64,000 bases of DNA from the NCBI RefSeq assembly GCF_002210095.1, contig NZ_AQQR01000001.1, positions 930,001-994,000 on the forward strand, in the 5' to 3' direction. The translations under genes and the position numbers were made by a program. Below are positions 37,550 to 48,533 of the stretch, piece after piece. Source of the DNA: Marinibacterium profundimaris (lineage in GTDB: Bacteria; Pseudomonadota; Alphaproteobacteria; Rhodobacterales; Rhodobacteraceae). How positions within the stretch are numbered: position 1 is the first letter of the stretch; every line of letters begins with the position of its first letter. Under the pieces are notes generated by a model. That model was not told the DNA's origin. It worked only from the letters and a program-made list of their open reading frames with translations, and searched no databases.

Positions 37550-38137
37550 GGCACCCTCCGACGCGTTACGCCCCCACCCTACCAGAGATCGCGCGCTGGC
37601 TTCGTGACAGTTTCACGGACCCGGGGGCCGCGCGAAGAGGGCCTGTTGAGAGCGCGGAGGTCAGACCCCGCCGTCGCGTAAGCCGCGACCGTGTCGACGG
37701 AGTATTTGGACAAAGGTGAAGACAGGGGGACGGCGCGAGACGGGATGGGGCAGCCCCGGTTGAACCGTTGCGTTCGAGGTATTTGGGCCAAGAAGAAGAC
37801 AGGGGGATGGTGCGCCGCTCCGGAGCCATGGCGCCACGTCCCCTGCTTCATCTTTGTAAAAATACTCCACTCCGTCCCCTCCACGAGCGCCGCCGCCAGA
37901 CGGTCTTACCCGCCGTCGCTGCACGAAGATCAGGCCCGTCCCCCGATGCGGCGCCCCTGTCTTCTTCTTGGACAAAAATACTCCATCAGGACCTCGCCGC
38001 CGGCGCCGCCCCCGATCCTCTCGCGCCCCGCGGGCAACAGCACCCGCCAACAGGCCCGAATCCTAAGATCCGGTTAATCCGCGCCTGCAAGCCCCTGATT
38101 TCACTGGAGCCGAAACATGTCCCACGCGTGGGACATC
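37550..38137. repeat. Intergenic region with four copies of the GTATTTGG...GAAGACAGGGGG repeat
   Basis: This 588-base gap has no credible gene. Four copies of a 28-34 bp element lie at 37700-37729 (+), 37776-37809 (+), 37840-37868 (reverse) and 37955-37985 (reverse). The core is GAGTATTTGG-CCAA-GAAGAAGACAGGGGG, with variants GACAAAGGTGAA. The two outward pairs form a large inverted array. Two more copies lie at 48245-48277 and 48380-48411. A 20-bp palindrome ends the region. Confidence 0.85.
38117..38136. promoter_or_regulatory. Perfect 20-bp palindrome at the end of the aminotransferase gene
   Basis: ATGTCCCACGCGTGGGACAT is a perfect palindrome one base beyond the aminotransferase stop codon. 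It could be a dimeric protein-binding site, a compact hairpin ending the transcript, or another small repeat. Confidence 0.5.
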
Positions 38138-39331
38138 TCAGGCCGCCTGGTAGACCGCGCCGACCTCGGCCCGGATGATCCGGGCGATCAGCGCGCAATC
38201 CTCTTCCGAGAAGGTCAGCGGCACCCGCATGTCCAGGATCGCCCTGAGCACCCGGTCGCTGTCCGGCAAAGGCTCGGACGGCGCATAGCGCCAGTGCCCG
38301 TAGGTGGAGGTAAACGCCGCAGGCTCCGGCGCGCCGAACCACTTCAGCTCCACCCCCCGGCGGCCACAGCGGGCGACCACCTCGCGGATCGCATCGTCGG
38401 CCCAGTCCAGCAGCAGGAACTGAAAGGACGACCCCACATAGGCCTCCTTCTCGGGCCGCGCGACCAGGCGCAGCCCGGCAGTGTCGCGCAGCTCCTCGTC
38501 CAGCACCCGGTAGCGGTCGTTCCACCGCGCGATCTGGGTCTCGAGATCCTTCAGCTGCGGCCGCAGGATCGCCGCGCGCAGGTTGTCCATCCGGCCCGAG
38601 ATATTGGGCATGTCATACTTGTGCCGCTCGAACACCTCGGGTCCCGGCGCCGCAAGGTGGCGCTCGTACAGCATGTAGGACCCCGACAGCAGCACCGCCC
38701 GCGCGGCGATGTCCGCGTCATCGGTGACCAGCAGCCCGCCCTCGCCGGAATTCATGTGCTTGTAGGTCTGGGTCGAATAGCAGCCTACCGCCCCGTGCCG
38801 CCCCGAGGCGACGCCGTTCCAGCCGCCCCCCATCGTATGGGCGCAATCCTCGATCACGGTGATCCCGGCGCCGTCGCAGATGGCCATGAGCCGGTCCATG
38901 TCGCAGGTATGCCCGCGCATGTGGCTCAGCAACAGCACCTTCGCCTGCCCCGCCCTGGCGGCGAGGTCGTCGAGGTCGATGGTCAGATCCTCGGTCACGC
39001 CGACGAAGACCGGCCTGCCGCCCACCGCGGCGATGGCCCCCGGCACCGGCGCCAGGGTGAAGGCATTGGTCAGCACCGGATCGCCCGGCCCCACGCCCAC
39101 GGCCCTGAGCGCCGTGGCGATCGCGTAGCCACCCGATGACACCGCCAGGCAATAGCGCGCGCCGGTCCAGGCGGCGAACTCCTGTTCCAGCAGCGCCGCC
39201 TGCGACAGCTCTCCGGCGGCGACGTTATAGCGGTGCAGGCGCCCGTTGCGCAGCACGTCCAGCGCGGCCGCGATCCCGTCTTCGGGAATCGGTTCCTGCT
39301 GGGTGAAGGATCCGGTGAAATGCTCGGTCAT
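38138..39331 (-). CDS. DegT/DnrJ/EryC1/StrS-type PLP aminotransferase
   Basis: A 397-residue fold-type I aminotransferase of the sugar-aminotransferase class. It shows VSSGGYAIATALRAVGVGPGDPVLTNAFT (here GGYAIATALRAVGVGPGD), VIEDCAHTMGGG with the PLP-nitrogen Asp, and YSTQTYKHMNSGEGGLLVT with the Schiff-base Lys. Such enzymes aminate keto-sugars for surface glycans or antibiotics, but some act on other keto compounds. No sugar-nucleotide genes are nearby, so the substrate is open. The ATG at 39331 is the first that keeps a sensible N-terminus; the ribosome site is weak. Confidence 0.88.
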   Translation of the reverse strand: MTEHFTGSFTQQEPIPEDGIAAALDVLRNGRLHRYNVAAGELSQAALLEQEFAAWTGARYCLAVSSGGYAIATALRAVGVGPGDPVLTNAFTLAPVPGAIAAVGGRPVFVGVTEDLTIDLDDLAARAGQAKVLLLSHMRGHTCDMDRLMAICDGAGITVIEDCAHTMGGGWNGVASGRHGAVGCYSTQTYKHMNSGEGGLLVTDDADIAARAVLLSGSYMLYERHLAAPGPEVFERHKYDMPNISGRMDNLRAAILRPQLKDLETQIARWNDRYRVLDEELRDTAGLRLVARPEKEAYVGSSFQFLLLDWADDAIREVVARCGRRGVELKWFGAPEPAAFTSTYGHWRYAPSEPLPDSDRVLRAILDMRVPLTFSEEDCALIARIIRAEVGAVYQAA

Positions 39332-39420
39332 GCGCGCTTTGTGCGCCGCCGCCCGGCCAGCGTCAATCGGGCACGCGCGCGGATCCCGCCAGGCGCGGGC
39401 GGCCGCTTGCCGCAGGCGGT

Positions 39421-40086
39421 CTAGACGATCAGCCGATCGGCCATCGCGGGCAGTGCGGCGAACTCTTCGAGCAGCCCCTCCGGCGCCAGCGCGGCCATGT
39501 CCTCGCCCGATGGGCCGAAGGTCACCAGCGCGCAGGGCACCCCGGCGGCGGCGGCCGTCCGCCGGTCGGTGATCGAATCCCCCACCAGCAGGCACCGCGC
39601 CGGATCCCCGCCCGCGTCGCGGGCCGCGGTCCGCAGGGGCTCCGGGTCGGGCTTGCGCACCGCCAGCGTGTCGGCCCCGATCAGCGAGCCGAAGGCGTCA
39701 AGGATGCCCAGCCGGGTCAAAAGCTGCCGGGCCAGCGCCTCGGGCTTGTTGGTGCAGATCCCCACAGCGTAACCGGCGGATTTCAGCGCCTCGACCGCCT
39801 CCATCGCTCCGGGATAAAGCACAGTGTGGCGGTCGATCTCGGCACCATAGGCCTCCAGCAGGATCGGATAGCCGCGGTCGATCAGCGCCACGTCCACGGC
39901 GCCCTGCCGCTCAAGCCCCAGCGTCAGCATGGCCCGCCCGCCCCGCAGCGCGGTGCCCGCGTCGCGCGCTGGATCCAGCCGGACCTCCAGCCCCAGCGCC
40001 GCGAAGGCCGCATTGGCCGCGGCGATCAGGTCGCCCGATGTATCGGCCAGCGTGCCGTCCAGGTCGAAGATCACGTTTCGCATCAT
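39421..40086 (-). CDS. gph: Phosphoglycolate phosphatase (HAD superfamily)
   Basis: A 221-residue HAD hydrolase. It has motif I VIFDLDGTLADTSGD, motif II GICTNKP, motif III KPDPEPLRTAA and motif IV CLLVGDSITDRRTAAAAG with a helical cap. This is the Gph pattern, removing 2-phosphoglycolate that inhibits central metabolism. Other small phosphate esters are possible substrates. It begins with two adjacent ATGs (40086/40083) after GGAAAG. It is divergent from glmU across a 136-base gap. Confidence 0.88.
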   Translation of the reverse strand: MMRNVIFDLDGTLADTSGDLIAAANAAFAALGLEVRLDPARDAGTALRGGRAMLTLGLERQGAVDVALIDRGYPILLEAYGAEIDRHTVLYPGAMEAVEALKSAGYAVGICTNKPEALARQLLTRLGILDAFGSLIGADTLAVRKPDPEPLRTAARDAGGDPARCLLVGDSITDRRTAAAAGVPCALVTFGPSGEDMAALAPEGLLEEFAALPAMADRLIV

Positions 40087-40163
40087 CTGTCTTTCCATTC
40101 GCGGCCGACCCGTGGGATTGTCCCGTATTGCAGCGCCGAAACCTTCTTTGATACCCACCCGGC

Positions 40164-40191
40164 TTGCACCATCGGGTCAGCCCGATAAAAC
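40164..40191 (+). promoter_or_regulatory. Weak candidate promoter of glmU-glmS with hairpin
   Basis: TTGCAC (40164-40169), 16 bases and TAAAAC (40186-40191) lie in the AT-richest part of the gph-glmU gap. An inverted repeat ATCGGG-TCAG-CCCGAT (40171-40186) fills the spacer and could be an operator. Confidence 0.3.
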
Positions 40192-40222
40192 CGCGGTAAG
40201 CTTTTATTAAGGGAACTTCTCC

Positions 40223-41593
40223 ATGGAGACGAGCCTCGTCATCCTTGCGGCCGGCAAGGGCACGCGGATGCAATCGGACCTGCCAAAGGTCCTGCACCAG
40301 GTCGCCCATGCGCCGCTTCTGGCCCATGCGATGCGCGCCGGCGCGGCGCTGCAGCCCGCGCGCACGGTTGTGGTCGCGGGCCACGGCTCCGACGCCGTTG
40401 CGCAAGCGGCGGACGAGGAGGATCCCGATGCCACCGTTGTCCTCCAGCAAGAGCAGCTGGGCACCGGCCATGCCGTCCTGCAGGCCCGCGCCGCCTTGGA
40501 GGGGTTCGAGGGCACGGTTATCGTGCTTTACGGCGACACGCCCTTCATCCGGCCCGAGACGCTGGAGGCGATGATCGCCGCCCGGGCCACCCATGACGTG
40601 ATCGTTCTGGGCTTCGACACGCCAGACCCGGGCCGCTACGGCCGGCTGAAGATGGAGTGCGACCAGCTTACCGCCATCGTGGAGTTCAAGGACGCCTCGG
40701 CCGAAGAGCGCGCCATAACCCTTTGCAATTCCGGCGTCATGGCCTGCGATGCGGCGCTGCTGTTCCAGTTGCTGGACCAGGTGTCGAACGACAATGCGGC
40801 CGGGGAATACTATCTGACGGATATTGTCCAGCTGTCACGCGCCGCCGGGAAATCCGCCACCGTGGTGGTCTGCCCGCAGGAGGAGACGCTGGGCGTCGAC
40901 AGCCGCGCGGGCCTTGCGCGGGCCGAGGCGCTGTTCCAGGCGCGCGCCCGGGCCGAGCTGCTGGAGATCGGCGTGACGCTGACCGCGCCCGAGACGGTCT
41001 TCCTCGCCCATGACACGGTGATCGGCCGCGATGTCTCGGTCGAGCCGAACGTCGTCTTCGGCCCCGGCGTCACGGTCGAGACCGGCGCCACGATCCGTGC
41101 CTTTTCGCACCTTGAAGGGTGCCATGTCAGCCGTGGCGCGGTGGTCGGCCCTTATGCCCGCCTGCGCCCCGGCGCCGAGCTGGGCGAGGACAGCCGCGTC
41201 GGCAATTTCGTCGAGATCAAGAATGCCACGATCGACGAGGGCGCCAAGGTCAACCACCTCAGCTACATCGGCGATGCCTCGGTCGGGAAAGGCACCAACA
41301 TCGGGGCCGGCACGATCACCTGCAACTACGACGGCTTCATGAAGCATCATACCGAGATCGGCGCCGGCGCCTTCATCGGCTCGGACACGATGCTGGTGGC
41401 CCCGGTCCGGGTCGGCAACAACGCGATGACGGCCACCGGCTCGGTCATCACCCGCGATGTCGAGGACGGCGCCCTGGCGCTGGCCCGCGCGCGGCAGGAG
41501 GTCAAGCCGGGCCGGGCGCTGAAGCTCTTCGAGTTTCTCAAGTCCCGCAAGGAGCAGAAGCGCAGGGAAAAAACGCAGCAGGAGCAGGCATAA
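40223..41593 (+). CDS. glmU: Bifunctional GlcNAc-1-P uridyltransferase / GlcN-1-P acetyltransferase
   Basis: A 456-residue enzyme making UDP-GlcNAc for peptidoglycan and lipid A. The N-terminal pyrophosphorylase has LAAGKGTRMQSDLPKVLH and VLYGDTPFI, and the EYYLTDIV segment is intact. The C-terminal left-handed beta helix has hexapeptide repeats and the acetyltransferase motifs NFVEIKNATIDEGAKVNHLSYIGDA (here VEIKNATIDEGAKVNHL) and GAGTITCNYDG. The stop shares a base with the glmS start (TAATG). Confidence 0.97.
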   Translation: METSLVILAAGKGTRMQSDLPKVLHQVAHAPLLAHAMRAGAALQPARTVVVAGHGSDAVAQAADEEDPDATVVLQQEQLGTGHAVLQARAALEGFEGTVIVLYGDTPFIRPETLEAMIAARATHDVIVLGFDTPDPGRYGRLKMECDQLTAIVEFKDASAEERAITLCNSGVMACDAALLFQLLDQVSNDNAAGEYYLTDIVQLSRAAGKSATVVVCPQEETLGVDSRAGLARAEALFQARARAELLEIGVTLTAPETVFLAHDTVIGRDVSVEPNVVFGPGVTVETGATIRAFSHLEGCHVSRGAVVGPYARLRPGAELGEDSRVGNFVEIKNATIDEGAKVNHLSYIGDASVGKGTNIGAGTITCNYDGFMKHHTEIGAGAFIGSDTMLVAPVRVGNNAMTATGSVITRDVEDGALALARARQEVKPGRALKLFEFLKSRKEQKRREKTQQEQA

Positions 41594-43407
41594 TGTGCGG
41601 TATCGTCGGCGTTCTGGGCAACCACGAGGTCGCCCCCATCCTGGTCGAGGCGCTCAAACGGCTTGAATATCGCGGCTATGACAGCGCCGGTATCGCCACG
41701 GTCAACGATGGCCACCTGGACCGGCGTCGCGCGGTGGGCAAGCTGATCAACCTGTCGGACAAGCTGGTGCACGAACCGCTGCGCGGCAAATCCGGCATCG
41801 GTCATACCCGCTGGGCCACCCATGGCGCCCCGAACGAGGGCAACGCGCATCCGCACAAGGCCGGGCCCGTGGCCGTCGTCCACAACGGGATCATCGAGAA
41901 TTTCGGCAGGCTGCGGGACGAACTGCAGGCAGCGGGGTTCACCCCCGAAACCCAGACCGACACCGAAACCGTCGCGCTCATGGCGCAGATGTTCATGGAC
42001 GGCGGCATGAAACCGGTCGAGGCCGCATTCGCCGCCATCGACCGGTTGGAGGGCGCCTTTGCGCTCGCCTTCCTCTTCGACGGCGAGCAAGACCTGATCG
42101 TCGCCGCCCGCAAGGGCTCGCCCCTGGCGATCGGCTGGGGCGATGGCGAGATGTTCGTGGGCTCCGACGCCTTCGCGCTGGCCCCGATGACTGACCGGGT
42201 GACCTATCTGGAGGAAGGCGACCGCGCCGTCGTCACCCGCAAGGGCGCCGATATCTTCGACGCGCGCGGCCACCTGGTGAGCCGCGCCAGCGTGCGGATC
42301 GAGGACAACGACGGTCAGGTCGAAAAGGGCGGCCACAAGCACTGGATGTCCAAGGAGATCGCCGAGCAGCCCTCGGTCCTGGCCGATGTGCTGGCACATT
42401 ACCTGCCCGGCGGGCAGCTGACCTTCCCCGGCGATGCGCTGGATTTCACCGGCATCGACCGGGTGGTGATGGTCGCCTGCGGCACCGGATTCTACAGCTG
42501 CTTCGTGGCGAAATACTGGCTGGAGACGCTGGCGCGGATCCCCGTGGAGGTCGATGTCGCGAGCGAGTTCCGCTATCGCGAGCCGCCGCTGTCGGAGCGC
42601 ACGCTGGCCATCTTTGTCAGCCAGTCGGGCGAGACCGCCGACACGCTGGCCGCCATGCGCTTTGCCGCCGGCAAGTGCCGGATTGCCAGCGTCGTGAACG
42701 TGGCGCAAAGCACCATCGCGCGGGAATCCGACCTGGCCCTGCCGATCCTCGCGGGGCGCGAGATCTCGGTCGCCTCGACCAAGGCCTTCACCTGCCAGCT
42801 GATGGTTCTGGCGCTGATGGCGATCAAGGCGGCCTCGGACCGGGGGACGCTGACGCAGGACGCGCTGAAGGGCCGGATCGCGGCGCTGTCGTCGCTGCCC
42901 GCGCTGGTCAGCCAGGCGCTGGCCGTGGGCCCGCAGATCAACGACCTGGCGCAAGAGCTGTCGGAGGCGCATGACATCCTCTTCCTGGGCCGGGGCGCGA
43001 TGTATCCTCTGGCTCTGGAAGGCGCGCTGAAACTCAAGGAACTCAGCTATATCCACGCCGAGGGCTATGCCTCCGGCGAGCTGAAGCACGGGCCCATCGC
43101 GCTGATCGACAGCCATGTGCCGGTGATCGTGATGGCGCCGTCGGATGCGCTTTTCGACAAGACGATCTCGAACATGCAGGAGGTCATGGCGCGCGGCGGC
43201 AAGGTGCTGCTGGTCACCGATGCCGCCGGCGCCGAGATGGCCGGCCACGGCTGCTGGGGCGTGATCCGCATGCCCGAGGCCGATCCGATGTTCGCCCCCG
43301 TCCTTTATGCCATCCCGGCGCAGCAGATCGCCTATCACACGGCCATCGCCAAGGGCACCGACGTGGACCAGCCGCGCAACCTCGCCAAGTCGGTCACGGT
43401 GGAGTAG
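41593..43407 (+). CDS. glmS: Glutamine--fructose-6-phosphate aminotransferase
   Basis: A 604-residue enzyme that makes glucosamine-6-phosphate, the entry to the pathway finished by GlmU. The N-terminal class II amidotransferase begins MCGIVGVLGN with the catalytic Cys1, followed by GIGHTRWATHGAPNEGNAHPH. Two SIS domains follow (MVACGTGFYSCFVAKYWLE; FVSQSGETADTLAAMRFA), then the C-terminal QQIAYHTAIAKGTDVDQPRNLAKSVTVE tail (end DQPRNLAKSVTVE). The start is the ATG at 41593. A longer frame upstream is a shadow of glmU. Confidence 0.98.
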   Translation: MCGIVGVLGNHEVAPILVEALKRLEYRGYDSAGIATVNDGHLDRRRAVGKLINLSDKLVHEPLRGKSGIGHTRWATHGAPNEGNAHPHKAGPVAVVHNGIIENFGRLRDELQAAGFTPETQTDTETVALMAQMFMDGGMKPVEAAFAAIDRLEGAFALAFLFDGEQDLIVAARKGSPLAIGWGDGEMFVGSDAFALAPMTDRVTYLEEGDRAVVTRKGADIFDARGHLVSRASVRIEDNDGQVEKGGHKHWMSKEIAEQPSVLADVLAHYLPGGQLTFPGDALDFTGIDRVVMVACGTGFYSCFVAKYWLETLARIPVEVDVASEFRYREPPLSERTLAIFVSQSGETADTLAAMRFAAGKCRIASVVNVAQSTIARESDLALPILAGREISVASTKAFTCQLMVLALMAIKAASDRGTLTQDALKGRIAALSSLPALVSQALAVGPQINDLAQELSEAHDILFLGRGAMYPLALEGALKLKELSYIHAEGYASGELKHGPIALIDSHVPVIVMAPSDALFDKTISNMQEVMARGGKVLLVTDAAGAEMAGHGCWGVIRMPEADPMFAPVLYAIPAQQIAYHTAIAKGTDVDQPRNLAKSVTVE

Positions 43408-43477
43408 GCTTTCTCCGTAAACGGTATCAGGCATCGGTTGCAGGCCCGTCAGGTTGCAGGCCCGCCAGGAGGACCAC

Positions 43478-44041
43478 ATGGCAAAACAGTTCGATCACAT
43501 CACCGAGGATCAGAAGGCTTTCGTCGAAGCGCAGCATATGTTCTTCACCGGCACGGCGGCGCCGGACGGGCGGGTCAATGTCTCGCCCAAGGGGCAGGAC
43601 AGCCTGCGCATTCTCGGGCCGAACCGGGTGGTGTGGATGAACCTCACCGGATCGGGGAACGAGACGGCGGGCCACCTGCTGGAACATCCGCGCATGACGC
43701 TGATGTGGTGTTCCTTCGAAAAGCGTCCGCTGATCTACCGCATGTACGGGACAGCCCGGACGATCCACCGGGGCGATCCCGACTGGGCCGAGATGTCGGA
43801 GCTGTTTCCGACACAGATGGGCGCGCGTCAGGTCTATGACATGTCGGTCGAGATGACGCAGACCTCCTGCGGCTATGCCGTGCCCTTCATGGAGTTCGTA
43901 TCGGACCGCGACACGCTGCATCGCTGGACCCTCGACAAGGGCGAGGACAAGCTGCGCGATTACTGGGCCGAGAAGAACACCGTCACACTGGACGGCAAGC
44001 CCACGGGCCTGCCCGCCGGGATGACCCGAACGGACGCCTGA
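43478..44041 (+). CDS. Pyridoxamine 5'-phosphate oxidase-fold family protein
   Basis: A 187-residue split-barrel flavin-binding family protein. It shows AQHMFFTGTAAPDGRVNVSPKG, the NRVVWMNLTGSGNETAGHLLEHPRMTLMWCSF core (here WMNLTGSGNETAGHLLEH) and a C-terminal region unlike PdxH. It may bind FMN, F420 or heme. It is probably not the vitamin B6 oxidase because the PdxH substrate motif is absent. The ATG at 43478 follows a strong AGGAGG. A short direct repeat (GGTTGCAGGCCCG / AGGTTGCAGGCCCG) lies just upstream. Confidence 0.85.
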   Translation: MAKQFDHITEDQKAFVEAQHMFFTGTAAPDGRVNVSPKGQDSLRILGPNRVVWMNLTGSGNETAGHLLEHPRMTLMWCSFEKRPLIYRMYGTARTIHRGDPDWAEMSELFPTQMGARQVYDMSVEMTQTSCGYAVPFMEFVSDRDTLHRWTLDKGEDKLRDYWAEKNTVTLDGKPTGLPAGMTRTDA

Positions 44042-44046
44042 TCGCG

Positions 44047-44718
44047 GTGACGTGCTGGCTTGACCGGTTGCGCGCGCTGGAGGATCCGGAGCGCGCCAAG
44101 GGCGCGGCGGCCTATCACAAGGCCCCCCGCACCTATCTGGGCGTGCCGAACCCGGTTCTGAACGATCTGGCAAAGGAGGCGCGCCAGACGCTGTCCGTCG
44201 CGGACCGGGTGGCGGTGGCGCGGGAACTCTGGGCAAGCGACATCCACGAGGCGCGGATCCTCGCCGCCAAGATCCTGACCCAGGCGCGGATCCGTCCCGA
44301 TGACGCGGTGTGGGAGACCGTCCGAGGCTGGGTGCCCGACTTCGACGCCTGGGCCATCGCCGATCACGCCTGCATGGCCGGGCAGAAGCGGCTCGTGGCC
44401 GACCCGGCGCGCCTGGACGAGATCGAGCGCTGGACCGCGTCGGACCACATGTGGACCCGTCGCGCGGCGCTGGTCATCACCCTGCCCTGGACCAAGCAGA
44501 ACCACCCCAAGCCGGAAGAGCTGGCCGCGCGCGACCGCGTGCTGGGCTGGGCGGCGGGCTATGTGGACGACCGCGACTGGTTCATCCAGAAGGCCGTGGG
44601 CTGGTGGCTGCGCGACCTGTCGAAACACGATCCTTCGCGCGTGCGCTCCTTCCTCGATGAGAATGGCGGGCGAATGAAGGCATTTGCACGAAAAGAAGCC
44701 TCGAAATATCTCGATTGA
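44047..44718 (+). CDS. DNA alkylation repeat (AlkD-like HEAT) protein
   Basis: A 223-residue all-helical HEAT-like repeat protein. It shows YHKAPRTYLGVPNPVLNDLAKEA, LWASDIHEARILAAKIL, DFDAWAIADHAC, MWTRRAALVITLPWT and DRDWFIQKAVGWWLRDLSKHDPSRVRSFL (here FIQKAVGWWLRDLSKHD). AlkD-type members excise bulky or cationic alkylated bases. The Trp and Asp residues expected for that family are present in the WWLRDLSK region. GTG start, 5 bases after the previous stop. Confidence 0.85.
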   Translation: MTCWLDRLRALEDPERAKGAAAYHKAPRTYLGVPNPVLNDLAKEARQTLSVADRVAVARELWASDIHEARILAAKILTQARIRPDDAVWETVRGWVPDFDAWAIADHACMAGQKRLVADPARLDEIERWTASDHMWTRRAALVITLPWTKQNHPKPEELAARDRVLGWAAGYVDDRDWFIQKAVGWWLRDLSKHDPSRVRSFLDENGGRMKAFARKEASKYLD

Positions 44719-44819
44719 GTCGCCGGACGCGGCCCTGTCGTAATCCTTCGCCAACCTGCCTGCGTCAGTCTGCTTCGACGCGACCCGGGACCATTCCGGC
44801 CCGAAGCAGGAGACACGCC

Positions 44820-45197
44820 ATGGAGATCACCGCCCCCGCAGACAGTCCCGCGCCCACAGGCCCCGGCCGCAGCGCGCAATCCACCGGCCACCAGGCAAAG
44901 GCCGCCGTGGCCGCGGCCCGCGAGGCGGGCATCGAGCTGCCGAAGAACGCCCAGGGCCTTGCCGCGTCGCAGATCGCCCGGGGGGTCGAGGCGGCGCTGG
45001 TCTTCCAGCCGCCCGAGCCGCCCGCCCCGGATGCCGCGCCCGGGACGGACCCTGTCGATGGCACCGCGCCGACCGGGACGGACATGCCCGATGCCGCGCC
45101 CGAGGCCGGCGGCACGAATGATGCAGAGATGGCCCTTGCGCTGCTGACCGCCGCCGCCGGATACGATGCCGCCGCCGAGGCTCTCGCCCCGCAGTGA
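44820..45197 (+). CDS. Hypothetical Ala/Pro-rich protein (125 aa)
   Basis: The ATG at 44820 follows AGGAG at 8 bases. The N-terminal half has a short conserved-looking helix (AKAAVAAAREAGIELPKNAQ, ending LAASQIARGVEAALVF). The rest is Pro/Ala/Asp-rich low-complexity sequence with another Ala-rich helix at the end. It has no signal peptide or membrane span. No family was recognised. It converges on the lipoprotein gene that follows. Confidence 0.6.
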   Translation: MEITAPADSPAPTGPGRSAQSTGHQAKAAVAAAREAGIELPKNAQGLAASQIARGVEAALVFQPPEPPAPDAAPGTDPVDGTAPTGTDMPDAAPEAGGTNDAEMALALLTAAAGYDAAAEALAPQ

Positions 45198-45271
45198 TCC
45201 TGCCCGGTGACCACGGGGATACGGCGGCCCGGCGAGGTCAAACTGCCCGGTCCTGAGACCCAATTCGCGCG

Positions 45272-45730
45272 TCAGCGCGCGCCGGTCACGCTGACCTCGA
45301 TCAGCTCGGTCAGGGGCGCGCCCAGCGCCTGCATCGCCAGCAGCGACAGGCGGCTGCCGCTGCCCGGCTCTCCGCCCGTGGGCCGCAGCGTCAGGGTCAC
45401 GGTGGAGCCCTGGTAGCGCACCTCGCCAGTCTGTTCGCGCCTGGTCAGGGGCGTTTCCATCCAGAGCCCAGGGCTTGCCGGGTCGCCCAGCGAGGCCACC
45501 GTCGTGCCCAGCGATGCGCTGCCCGACACCGGAAGCGCCACGGGCACTTCGGCCTGGGGCGCCGTGTCCGCCGCATCGGCCGGCGCGGCCGCCCCGACCA
45601 CGGGCGTCGTGCCCTGCGCGGTGCCATTCGTACCGGGGCCACCGAAGATGCCGTCGGACACCCCCTTGACCGTATCGCAGCCCATCAGCGCCAGCGGCGC
45701 CACGAGCGTCATTGCCATCCAGAGTTTCAT
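45272..45730 (-). CDS. Lipoprotein of unknown function
   Basis: A 152-residue protein with signal MTLVAPLALMGC (lipobox LMGC). It is followed by a flexible Gly/Thr/Ala region and a C-terminal module with SLGTTVASLGDPASPGLWM, TPLTRREQTGEVRYQG and LSLLAMQALGAPLTELIEVSV. This module is found in several envelope proteins of the group, but no function was recognised. The start ATG at 45730 follows AAAGGGGGG. Confidence 0.75.
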   Translation of the reverse strand: MKLWMAMTLVAPLALMGCDTVKGVSDGIFGGPGTNGTAQGTTPVVGAAAPADAADTAPQAEVPVALPVSGSASLGTTVASLGDPASPGLWMETPLTRREQTGEVRYQGSTVTLTLRPTGGEPGSGSRLSLLAMQALGAPLTELIEVSVTGAR

Positions 45731-45881
45731 GCCCCCCTTTCTAGGGCCCTGCACCCCGCAGGTCCATCGCGTCGCGCATGGAAATGGCGGATCGCTGCCA
45801 CGCCCGGGCGCCCCCTCCGCCCGCCGCACCATTCGTTAACGCCCCTTGTCGCAACCTTCGCGGAGGTTTACCTCTTGCCCC

Positions 45882-46892
45882 ATGACACAGGCGCCCCTCA
45901 TCGATCCCTTTGCCCGCGCGATCACCTATCTGCGCGTTTCGGTCACCGACCGCTGCGATTTCCGCTGCGTCTATTGCATGGCCGAGAACATGACCTTCCT
46001 GCCGAAGAAGGAGCTTCTAACGCTGGAAGAGTTGGACCGCATGTGTTCGACCTTTGTCGGCATGGGTGTCGAGAAGCTGCGGATCACCGGCGGCGAGCCC
46101 CTGGTGCGGCGCGACATCATGACCTTCTTCCGGTCGATGTCTCGGCACCTGGACAGCGGGGCCCTCAAGGAGCTGACGGTCACGACCAACGGCTCGCAGC
46201 TGGGCCGCTTTGCCAGGGACCTCGCCGATGCGGGGGTGAAACGGATCAACGTCTCGCTCGACACGCTGGACGAGGAAAAATTCGCCCGCGTGACCCGCTG
46301 GGGCCGGCTGCCGCAGGTGCTCAAGGGCATCGATGCCGCGCTGGACGCCGGGCTGAAGATCAAGATCAACGCCGTCGCGCTGAAGGGCTTCAACGAGGAA
46401 GAACTGCCGCGCATCACCGAATGGTGCGCCGAGAAGGGCATGGACCTGACCTGGATCGAGGTCATGCCGATGGGCGATCTGGGCAACGAGGACCGCGTGG
46501 GCCAGTTCTGGTCGCTCAAGGATGTGCGCGCCCGGTATGAAGAGCACTATACCGTCACCGACCTGGCCGAGCGCACCGGCGGCCCGGCGCGCTACGTGCG
46601 GCTGGAGGAGACGGGCCAGAAGATCGGCTTCATCACGCCGCTGTCCCACAATTTCTGCGAAAGCTGCAACCGCGTGCGGCTGACCTGCACCGGCGAGCTT
46701 TACATGTGCCTGGGCCAGGAGGACATGGCCGACCTGCGCGCGCCGCTGCGCGACTGGCCCAACGACGACCGCCCCCTGCAGGAGGCGATCCGCGCGGCGA
46801 TCGGGCTGAAGCCCAAGGGCCATGATTTCGATTATTCGCGTCGCCGGGCGGACGGCCAGGTGTCGCGCCACATGAGCCACACGGGCGGCTGA
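45882..46892 (+). CDS. moaA: GTP 3',8-cyclase (molybdenum cofactor synthesis)
   Basis: A 336-residue radical SAM enzyme making the first molybdenum-cofactor intermediate from GTP. It has the SAM cluster CDFRCVYC and the C-terminal cluster in [21 protein letters not shown] (ligands in CESC and the later Cys of RLTC). The GGEPLVRRD strand is intact, and a terminal Gly-Gly (SHTGG) is used in catalysis. The ATG at 45882 gives a normal length; GGAGG is 15 bases upstream, rather far. The stop shares a base with the kdtA start (TGATG). Confidence 0.96.
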
Positions 46893-48199
46893 TGTCCCGC
46901 AAGGGTGGCAAAAGGCCGTCACCGACACCGCTTTACAAGGTCTATTCCGGGCTGACCCGTCTTGCCGCGCCCATGGTGCTGGCCCATGTCGGCCGCAAGC
47001 TGGCCGCGCAGGGGGTGGAGCCCGAGCGGATCGACGAACGCGCCGGCCATGCGACACTGCCCCGCCCCGAGGGCGAGATGATCTGGTTTCACGGGGCCAG
47101 CGTGGGCGAGAGCCTGTCGGTCCTGTCTGTCATCACGCGGCTGGGCCAGAGGCTGCCGGGGGCAGAGTTCCTGATGACCTCGGGCACCGCCAGCTCGGCC
47201 CAGATTGTCGGCCGCCGGCTGCCGCCGCGTACCCGCCACCAGTTCGCGCCGATGGACGCGCCGCAGGTGCTGGACCGCTTCCTGGACCACTGGCGCCCGC
47301 GCGCCGGGGTCTTCGTGGAAAGCGAGCTTTGGCCCGGGATGCTGATCCGCGCCCGCGACCGGGGGGTGAAGCTGGCGCTGCTGAACGCGCGGCTTTCGGC
47401 CAGGTCGGCACAGGGCTGGGCGCGGTATCCGGACACGGCGCGCTTCGTGCTGGACGCCTTCGAGGTGATGCTGACCCAGAATGCCGAGATCGCGCAGCGC
47501 CTGCGGTCGATGGGCGCCGATCCGGACCGGCTGCAGGTCGGTGCGAACCTCAAGGCCACGGCCGAGCCGCTGCCGGTGGACGAGCTGACCCTGTCCGAGC
47601 TGCACGAGGCGGTGGGCCCCCGCCCGCTCTGGGTCGCGAGTTCCACCCATCCTGGCGAGGAAGAGATCGTCCTGGAGGCGCAGTCGCGTATCCTGAGCCA
47701 GCGCCCCGGCGCGCTGCTGATCCTGATCCTGCGCCATCCCGAACGCGGCGATGCGGTCGAGGCGATGGTCCGCGAGGCTGGCCTGACCTGCGCACGCCGC
47801 AGCACGGGCGAGCCGATCGGGGCGGAGACGCAGGTCTATCTGGCCGACACCCTGGGCGAGACGGGCACCTGGTACGCCGCGGCGCCGATCGTGCTGCTGG
47901 GCGGCTCGCTCCTGCCGGAGATCGGCGGGCACAACCCGTTCGAGCCGGCGGGCTCCGGCGCGGCGGTGATGAGCGGGCCGCATGTGGTCAATTTTAGCGA
48001 GACCTTCGGGCCGATGTTCTCGACCGGGGCCGCGACCGAGGTGGCAACGGCGGAGGATATCGCCGGCGTGGTCCTGGGCTGGCTGGGGGATGCGGCGCGT
48101 CTGGAGACCCGGCGCGAGGCGGCGCGGGATTTCGCGCGGTCAGGGGCGGCGGCGCTGGATCACGTGATCGACGTGCTGGTCGAGCAGCTGGGGCTGTGA
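46892..48199 (+). CDS. kdtA: 3-deoxy-D-manno-octulosonate (Kdo) transferase
   Basis: A 435-residue GT30 glycosyltransferase that adds Kdo to lipid A precursors at the inner membrane. It shows IWFHGASVGESLSVLSVI, VFVESELWPGMLIRAR, LLNARLSARSAQGW, WVASSTHPGEEEIVL and LLGGSLLPEIGGHNPFEPAGSG (here GGSLLPEIGGHNPFEPAG) with the conserved C-terminal UDP/CMP-binding style glutamate. The first residues are polar and no long membrane anchor is obvious. It is translated directly after moaA, an unusual but purely positional pairing. Confidence 0.93.
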   Translation: MSRKGGKRPSPTPLYKVYSGLTRLAAPMVLAHVGRKLAAQGVEPERIDERAGHATLPRPEGEMIWFHGASVGESLSVLSVITRLGQRLPGAEFLMTSGTASSAQIVGRRLPPRTRHQFAPMDAPQVLDRFLDHWRPRAGVFVESELWPGMLIRARDRGVKLALLNARLSARSAQGWARYPDTARFVLDAFEVMLTQNAEIAQRLRSMGADPDRLQVGANLKATAEPLPVDELTLSELHEAVGPRPLWVASSTHPGEEEIVLEAQSRILSQRPGALLILILRHPERGDAVEAMVREAGLTCARRSTGEPIGAETQVYLADTLGETGTWYAAAPIVLLGGSLLPEIGGHNPFEPAGSGAAVMSGPHVVNFSETFGPMFSTGAATEVATAEDIAGVVLGWLGDAARLETRREAARDFARSGAAALDHVIDVLVEQLGL

Positions 48200-48533
48200 G
48201 CGTGGTGCCCTGCAGCGGCGTGGCGCCGGTGGCGGGCGGCGCGTCGAAGTATTTGGACAAAGATGAAGACAAGAGGGCGCGCCACGTGGTCTGGCGGAGC
48301 GCGGGGGGGCTCGTGGTCGGGGATGCCCCTGGCGGCGGGCGGCCTCTTCGGGGGACCGGCGCGAAACCGGGATGTCGGATGAGGTATTTGGGCCAAGAAG
48401 AAGACAGGGGGTGGGCCCCGCGGCTGCGTGGCGCCTGTCGAGATCAGTCTTGATGGCTGAGGTTCGGTTGTAGTTAAGACGGTCCATCCGCGGTCGTGGT
48501 GGCAGCGGATGGACCGGTGATAGAGGGCTGGGC
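48200..48533. repeat. Intergenic region with two copies of the GTATTTGG repeat and a hairpin
   Basis: This 334-base gap has no gene. Copies of the repeat lie at 48245-48277 (AAGTATTTGGACAAAGATGA...) and 48380-48411 (GAGGTATTTGGGCCAAGAAG...), both on the plus strand. They match the four copies at 37.7-38.0 kb. Confidence 0.82.
48481..48515. terminator. Stem-loop after the first M20 gene
   Basis: Perfect 11-bp arms (48481-48491 and 48505-48515) with a 13-base loop lie 18 bases beyond the minus-strand M20 gene. There is only a weak T-run (GTCTTAACT), so termination is plausible but unproven. Confidence 0.45.

Follow-up and report, generated by a model that had tools for sequence, protein, structure and literature searches.

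Putative gene 3'-end boxes with genome-specific words in Marinibacterium profundimaris and other Rhodobacteraceae

A window of 64,000 nucleotides from the genome of Marinibacterium profundimaris (C1:930001-994000 of G000, which comprises 6.15 Mb in 60 contigs) holds six copies of a short intergenic repeat, here termed the box, which is considered below as a putative signal at the 3' ends of genes. The copies fall into two clusters, one faced by the 3' end of a minus-strand gene and the other following a plus-strand gene that resembles a KDO transferase gene and is presumably waaA (Table 1). An earlier note, made from the letters of this DNA alone, had listed six copies and described the first cluster as two forward copies facing two reverse copies; all six (6/6) are present at those positions, and the arrangement is as it described. 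At the gathering score, Rfam gave no matches in the window.

Table 1. Box copies and neighbouring genes, in window positions
Feature	Position	Strand	Core	Word	Adjacent hairpin	Relation and remarks
Box copy 1	37700-37729	+	37702-37721	CAAAGGTGAAG	none	
Box copy 2	37776-37809	+	37779-37798	CCAAGAAGAAG	none	
Box copy 3	37840-37868	-	37846-37865	CAAAGATGAAG	none	sense to minus-strand gene ending at 38138, 272 nt past its stop
Box copy 4	37955-37985	-	37961-37981	CCAAGAAGAAG	none	sense to minus-strand gene ending at 38138, ~157 nt past its stop; spacer 4 nt, not 3
Box copy 5	48245-48277	+	48249-48268	CAAAGATGAAG	none	49 nt past stop of gene 46973-48199
Box copy 6	48380-48411	+	48384-48403	CCAAGAAGAAG	none	184 nt past stop of gene 46973-48199
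Minus-strand gene	38138-39331	-				3' end faces first cluster
Plus-strand gene	46973-48199	+				3' end carries copies 5 and 6; longest reading frame from 46892

Aligned copies share a layout of RTATTT, about three variable bases, a purine-rich word of 11 bases and then CAGG; written more fully, this is [G]GAGTATTT or GAGGTATTT, three free bases, the 11-base word and then a decreasingly conserved (A)CAGGGG. The tail GAAGACAGGGGG, with at most one mismatch, occurs four times in the window against a shuffle mean of 0.27, and none of 100 shuffles reached four. The core, GTATTT-N3-word, is not a palindrome, and the palindromes seen come from two facing copies. In the whole 6.15 Mb, the genome-wide motif search that the earlier note had proposed finds the core GTATTTNNNNNAAGANGAAG 123 times exactly and its reversed control not at all. 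Within the 1.2 Mb that was read (about one-fifth of the genome), 75 copies carry one of five words, other spellings being uncounted, and the density is low, at about one box per 16 kb. The words are CCAAGAAGAAG (25 copies), CAAAGATGAAG (23), CAAAGGTGAAG (15), CCAAGGTGAAG (7) and CCAAGAAGAAC (5), and they seldom occur outside boxes, being preceded by TATTT at 25/27, 23/24, 15/15, 7/8 and 5/7 of their respective occurrences; the six without it comprise three in coding DNA and three in intergenic DNA, two of the latter being damaged boxes with TACTT. The spacer measures three bases in 64 of the 75 copies, four in eight and two in three. Two combinations, CCAAGATGAAG and CAAAGAAGAAG, are the words of other genomes and never appear in a box in the same 1.2 Mb (independence rejected, chi-square p 7e-13). 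A start-codon or Shine-Dalgarno role for the word (GGAGG...ATG) was dismissed, since ATG is missing from one of the main words, and among small RNA genes in the 1.2 Mb none stood out as carrying an exact complement of a word. Boxes may be paired, with recurrent spacings such as 38-42, 76-78 and 131-136 bp, together with others of 51, 67, 115 and 121-126 bp. A linker word, TTTGCAGATGTCGG, is found repeatedly, either between two boxes or after them, as in the pairs at C1b 146508 and 203932 (C1:806508 and C1:863932), with four exact occurrences in segment C1b and none in segments C1a and C12a.

With gene ends taken from our own gene caller for M. profundimaris, its congener G485 and the named loci, 60 of 73 intergenic copies in M. 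profundimaris are sense to the upstream gene (null 0.464, p 3e-10); the two others lie inside called genes, so that coding DNA is nearly free of boxes (2/75). Boxes are held by 18 of 106 convergent gaps of at least 60 nt, by 24 of 337 tandem gaps and by 5 of 149 divergent gaps. The 0.4 Mb read of G485 gave a similar picture, with 19 of 25 copies sense after stops (p 0.001) and one more inside gene calls. Among named loci (80 of 114 fetched by name), an upstream gene was called for 69 boxes, 57 of which are sense to it; 8 of 84 boxes lie inside gene calls and seven have no upstream gene in the locus. Public annotation was available for plasmids: 13 of 20 matches were viewed, one lacking annotation, and 11 of the remaining 12 boxes are sense and some 18 to 147 nt past a coding sequence, although these 11 represent eight distinct loci, the same place recurring in sister strains. 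The twelfth box is located on a Marinibacterium plasmid, between parA and parB. Six plasmid views have the box between same-strand genes, 4 to 34 nt ahead of the next start, as inside operons.

Boxes are also widespread in the family. The strict GTATTT form was found in 74 of 198 Rhodobacteraceae genomes (M. profundimaris included) and the GATATTT form, counted separately, in 62 of 198, against one genome for the reversed control of each form. Outside the family, nine of 285 sampled genomes gave one match each, about the level of the reversed control (seven genomes). Named members with a box include Salipiger, Paracoccus, Rhodovulum, Ruegeria, Roseovarius, Loktanella, Thioclava and Mameliella, and the four of 80 listed named loci that are labelled from outside the class (L152, L155, L156 and L192) look like chance or contamination. 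The vocabulary of the box is genome-specific, with one or a few words per genome and other words in relatives. Word entropy was 0.23 bit within genomes vs 3.15 bits pooled, for ten genomes picked for clear listings (8 to 20 listed matches each); others, such as G039, G154 and G181, use a mixture of at least two words, and so does M. profundimaris. The earlier note had mentioned similar words between genes of other Rhodobacteraceae, which is borne out, although their spelling varies from one genome to the next.

Comparison with G485, whose protein pairs with M. profundimaris have a median identity of about 83 %, indicates how these sites have been passed on. The comparison took in 117 orthologous gene ends, each flanked by 60 nt or more in each genome, and scored as a box any vocabulary word within 200 nt (the vocabulary having been fixed after both genomes had been viewed): 13 ends bear a box in both species, two in M. 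profundimaris only, three in G485 only and 99 in neither (Fisher p 9e-13). The word class CCAAGAAGAA is retained at five of these 13 ends, with a difference in the last letter at two of the five, and the class changes at eight; therefore, box sites are inherited while the vocabulary switches. At one such end, GCAATGCCTTCGGCAGAG-GTATTTTTG-CAAAGATGAAG-ACGGG in one species stands opposite GCGATGCCTTCGGCAGAG-GTATTTTTG-CCAAGAAGAAG-ACGGG in the other, and the gene before window copies 5 and 6 likewise has a shared box-bearing end at which the word has changed. The earlier note had regarded a random distribution with respect to genes, with no conservation outside the two clusters, as fatal to its proposal; what is found instead is placement at gene ends, spread through the family and conservation at orthologous ends.

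A minority of boxes are preceded by a hairpin. By sequence pattern, 31 of the 75 copies have one, 18 of these being a G-run hairpin with a further C-run and 13 being CCTCCGGCGGGAG or a close form, such that an intrinsic-terminator hairpin directly upstream of the T stretch characterizes these subclasses and not the boxes overall. Across the family, the G-run class reads X, loop, X', three nucleotides (or a second stem), X'', GG and RTATTT, where X' is the Watson-Crick partner of X and X'' is the plain, unreversed complement of X. The X/X'/X'' sets are GAGGGG/CCCCTC/CTCCCC, GGAGGG/CCCTCC/CCTCCC, GGGAGG/CCTCCC/CCCTCC, GAGGGA/TCCCTC/CTCCCT and GAGAGG/CCTCTC/CTCTCC. When X'' was left free as any six pyrimidines (295 genomes per pattern), 229 of 260 listed matches had an exact X', and X'' in these was parallel 193 times, antiparallel twice, all C six times and of another kind 28 times; the 193 are not independent events, since matches from one genome are related, and the GGGAGG set comprises three matches. 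Antiparallel pairing of the third run was rejected on these figures (2/229). Among listed matches, the third run tracks an A at arm positions 2, 3, 4 and 6, and the parallel run is present at 15 distinct loci with a 3-nt linker. The length of the G-run equals that of the C-run in 43 of 49 boxes and, for the second-stem class, in 45 of 55. Outside the family, none of nine stray matches (209 genomes) follows the parallel rule. A search for the fold alone returned four instances in M. profundimaris and two in G485, all six of them followed by the T stretch and a word; for named loci the figure was 39 of 43 with a box, the loci having been chosen for a box. The fold is sense after stops in 4/4 cases in M. 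profundimaris, 1/2 in G485 and 39/42 at named loci. In a control on 507 hairpins, with nested hairpins counted apart, there were 10 antiparallel entries vs 34 parallel ones; four of the 10 stand before TATTT and are sub-hairpins of L208 and L223, whose near-symmetric arms give a parallel match too, and the other six lie elsewhere.

The parallel register is that expected of a Hoogsteen third strand, and the covariation suggests that the third pyrimidine run may form a three-stranded RNA fold with the hairpin. A small local hairpin (CC..GG ahead of the T stretch) may also be present; it is insufficient as an explanation because T in the third run shifts along with A in the purine arm. RNA major-groove triple helices such as that of the SAM-V riboswitch (PMC6061858) resemble the predicted fold in having a third strand along a stem, whereas the fold at boxes is C-rich, stands at gene ends in many copies and is predicted from covariation only.

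The sense position of the boxes, their near absence from coding DNA and their conservation at gene ends suggest that they act in the transcript or at the polymerase. The boxes are probably gene 3'-end signals, acting in termination or end processing, and of the three roles that the earlier note had put forward, its RNA processing or 3'-end signal is the best supported, given boxes that are sense after stops and kept at orthologous gene ends. According to this account, a box on the sense strand shortly after a stop codon would set the 3' end of the transcript, either by halting RNA polymerase or by end processing. In the minority with an upstream hairpin, and specifically in the class in which the third pyrimidine run would lie back along the purine arm, that run could bring the stem, some 13 nt upstream, near the T stretch; since the window copies have no hairpin, only the box part of the account would apply to them. 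The word would be recognized by a sequence-specific trans-acting reader, whether a protein or a small RNA, that changes with the lineage. We infer such a reader from words that are near-uniform within genomes, different between them and switched at the same gene end in sister species; moreover, core enzymes are conserved and yet the words differ, which calls for a reader that changes. The earlier suggestion of a protein-binding array may hold, in that genome-specific words suggest a sequence-specific reader. RNA polymerase I terminators with TTF-I or Reb1 boxes are alike in combining a T-rich stretch with a sequence-specific box nearby, and differ in that the Rhodobacteraceae boxes are bacterial and their reader is putative.

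Several observations weigh against this account. Thirteen of the 73 intergenic copies in M. profundimaris, window copies 1 and 2 among them, are not sense to the upstream gene. G485 has no counterpart of the first window cluster; the gene preceding copies 3 and 4 has one of the two ends that bear a box in M. profundimaris only. No box was seen, either, when the waaA end was loosely scanned in G486. The T stretch is short, and 44 of the 75 copies, including all six in the window, have no adjacent hairpin. Several boxes stand a few bases ahead of the following start codon within what look like operons (bchX-bchY, rfbB-rfbD), and complete termination there would be deleterious. As regards the fold, of 23 boxes with A in the purine arm, the 16 without a second stem include 13 matched in full and three that are not (L153, L166 and L190), and in boxes with a second stem between X' and X'' the terminal A of X is matched in just one of seven. 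Furthermore, C+.G-C triplets need protonation.

A broader proposal, which we put forward tentatively and hold to be possible rather than probable, is a family-wide gene-end code in which Rhodobacteraceae transcripts would end at the T stretch and the word after it would be read by a co-evolving lineage-specific factor, hence the switch of words at inherited sites, with a subclass having a three-stranded (Hoogsteen) terminator fold. If so, bacterial gene ends would carry a word that is near-uniform per genome and rewritten at inherited sites, calling for a reader; the parallel-register covariation would be a natural and recurrent example of a predicted RNA triple helix located at gene ends; and the sequence would show where transcription units or processing end in a large family of bacteria, giving a tool for annotation. 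Among the papers listed from a mostly open-access literature (on repeats, terminators, triplexes, roseobacters, uptake-sequence dialects and sequence strings), none was found to describe the element, and PMC3733652 contains none of the terms Rhodobacter, Roseobacter, Ruegeria, Paracoccus, alphaproteobacteria or terminator.

Because copies occur inside operons, processing or partial termination is a serious alternative to a full stop. In its specific form, the box would be an mRNA processing or stability element, with an RNase E site ([AG]U|AUUU) behind a protective hairpin yielding defined 3' ends and unequal operon expression, and with the word pairing with a small RNA or binding a factor. 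The boxes in apparent operons agree with this, as does the fit of RTATTT to the RNase E consensus, RN|WUU. A study on Rhodobacter sphaeroides (PMC6238624) reports A/U around the cut at many RNase E sites, and also that only about 2 % of the mapped sites lie in 3' untranslated regions. That scarcity, the genome-specific words, which a general enzyme leaves unexplained, and the lack of an adjacent hairpin at more than half of the copies make the RNase E explanation somewhat unlikely.

Plain intrinsic terminators, with the downstream word owed to drift or to a preference of RNA polymerase for certain downstream DNA, would account for the gene-end position and for the hairpin and T stretch of 31/75 copies, and in their position after stop codons the boxes do resemble Rho-independent terminators. 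Such terminators differ from the boxes in that most boxes have no hairpin, one class of hairpin is accompanied by a parallel third run of pyrimidines, and a conserved word stands past the T stretch whose letters are near-fixed within genomes and different between them, though RNA polymerase is conserved; we regard this explanation as unlikely.

The mobile mini-element of the earlier note corresponds to mosaic repeats of the REP/BIME/REPIN kind settling at gene ends, the words being subfamilies. Like these repeats and their RAYT transposases, the boxes are short, intergenic, located at gene ends, sometimes paired and of few sequence classes per genome, and the recurrent spacings, the linker sequences common to some pairs, two copies (C1a 166314 and 249883) with near-identical 60-bp surroundings and the absence of the first window cluster from G485 are all compatible with mobility. 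This explanation is nevertheless improbable and fits worse than a 3'-end signal because positions are conserved between species, with a box common to both at 13 of 18 box-bearing orthologous ends, and because the Y1 (REP-type) transposase (PF01797) has no match in M. profundimaris and is present in only 18 of 198 family genomes. In addition, hairpin, spacer and word vary rather independently, and the core, as noted, is not a palindrome.

For the hairpin class, an alternative is that the pyrimidine runs, being mirror-symmetric, work at the DNA level by forming H-DNA instead of acting in RNA. Mirror symmetry is indeed present between X' and X''; H-DNA, however, needs no separate purine arm, yet a search for asymmetric pyrimidine mirror repeats next to RTATTT, made without requiring the arm X, found that arm in all 14 cases, and the fold is mostly sense after stops, all of which renders this explanation highly doubtful. 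Barely credible is a DNA uptake or self-recognition sequence: such sequences occur also in coding DNA and at high density, whereas boxes are nearly absent from it, strongly biased to the sense strand and sparse, so that this reading too fits worse than a 3'-end signal, despite the one or few words per genome, the other words in relatives and the inverted pairs at some gene ends that recall the dialects of the Neisseriaceae (PMC3630211).

Some further arrangements were observed. In Tropicimonas marinistellae (L177, 5605-6712), five tandem copies of hairpin and box follow one another at exact 264-bp steps. An inovirus record from a pig sample (H21, MT135286.1, 4183-4208) is 96 % identical to the first 26 bases of the hairpin composite (E 7e-3), which may be chance. 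In G485, a stem that measures about 17 bp as read by eye and includes GGTATTT connects two outward-facing boxes with different words (C1:3726743-3726855), in the manner of a two-way terminator; elsewhere in that genome the word AAGAGAAAGAAG precedes a GCCRGAAWGAA-type word in 3/3 tandem pairs seen in 0.4 Mb (X 80794-80852, 83509-83567 and 92796-92869), 58 to 73 bp apart. Finally, the window contains a second repeat at 38072-38135, GGTTAATCCGCGCC...TGTCCCACGCGTGGGACA, a perfect 18-bp palindrome just beyond the stop codon of minus-strand gene 38138-39331, and it is kept at the same place in G485. Its core, GTCCCACGCGTGGGAC, recurs at about 20 places in the 1.2 Mb read of M. profundimaris and at eight in the 0.4 Mb of G485 (strand matches halved), and is also located inside several box pairs spaced 131-132 bp apart.

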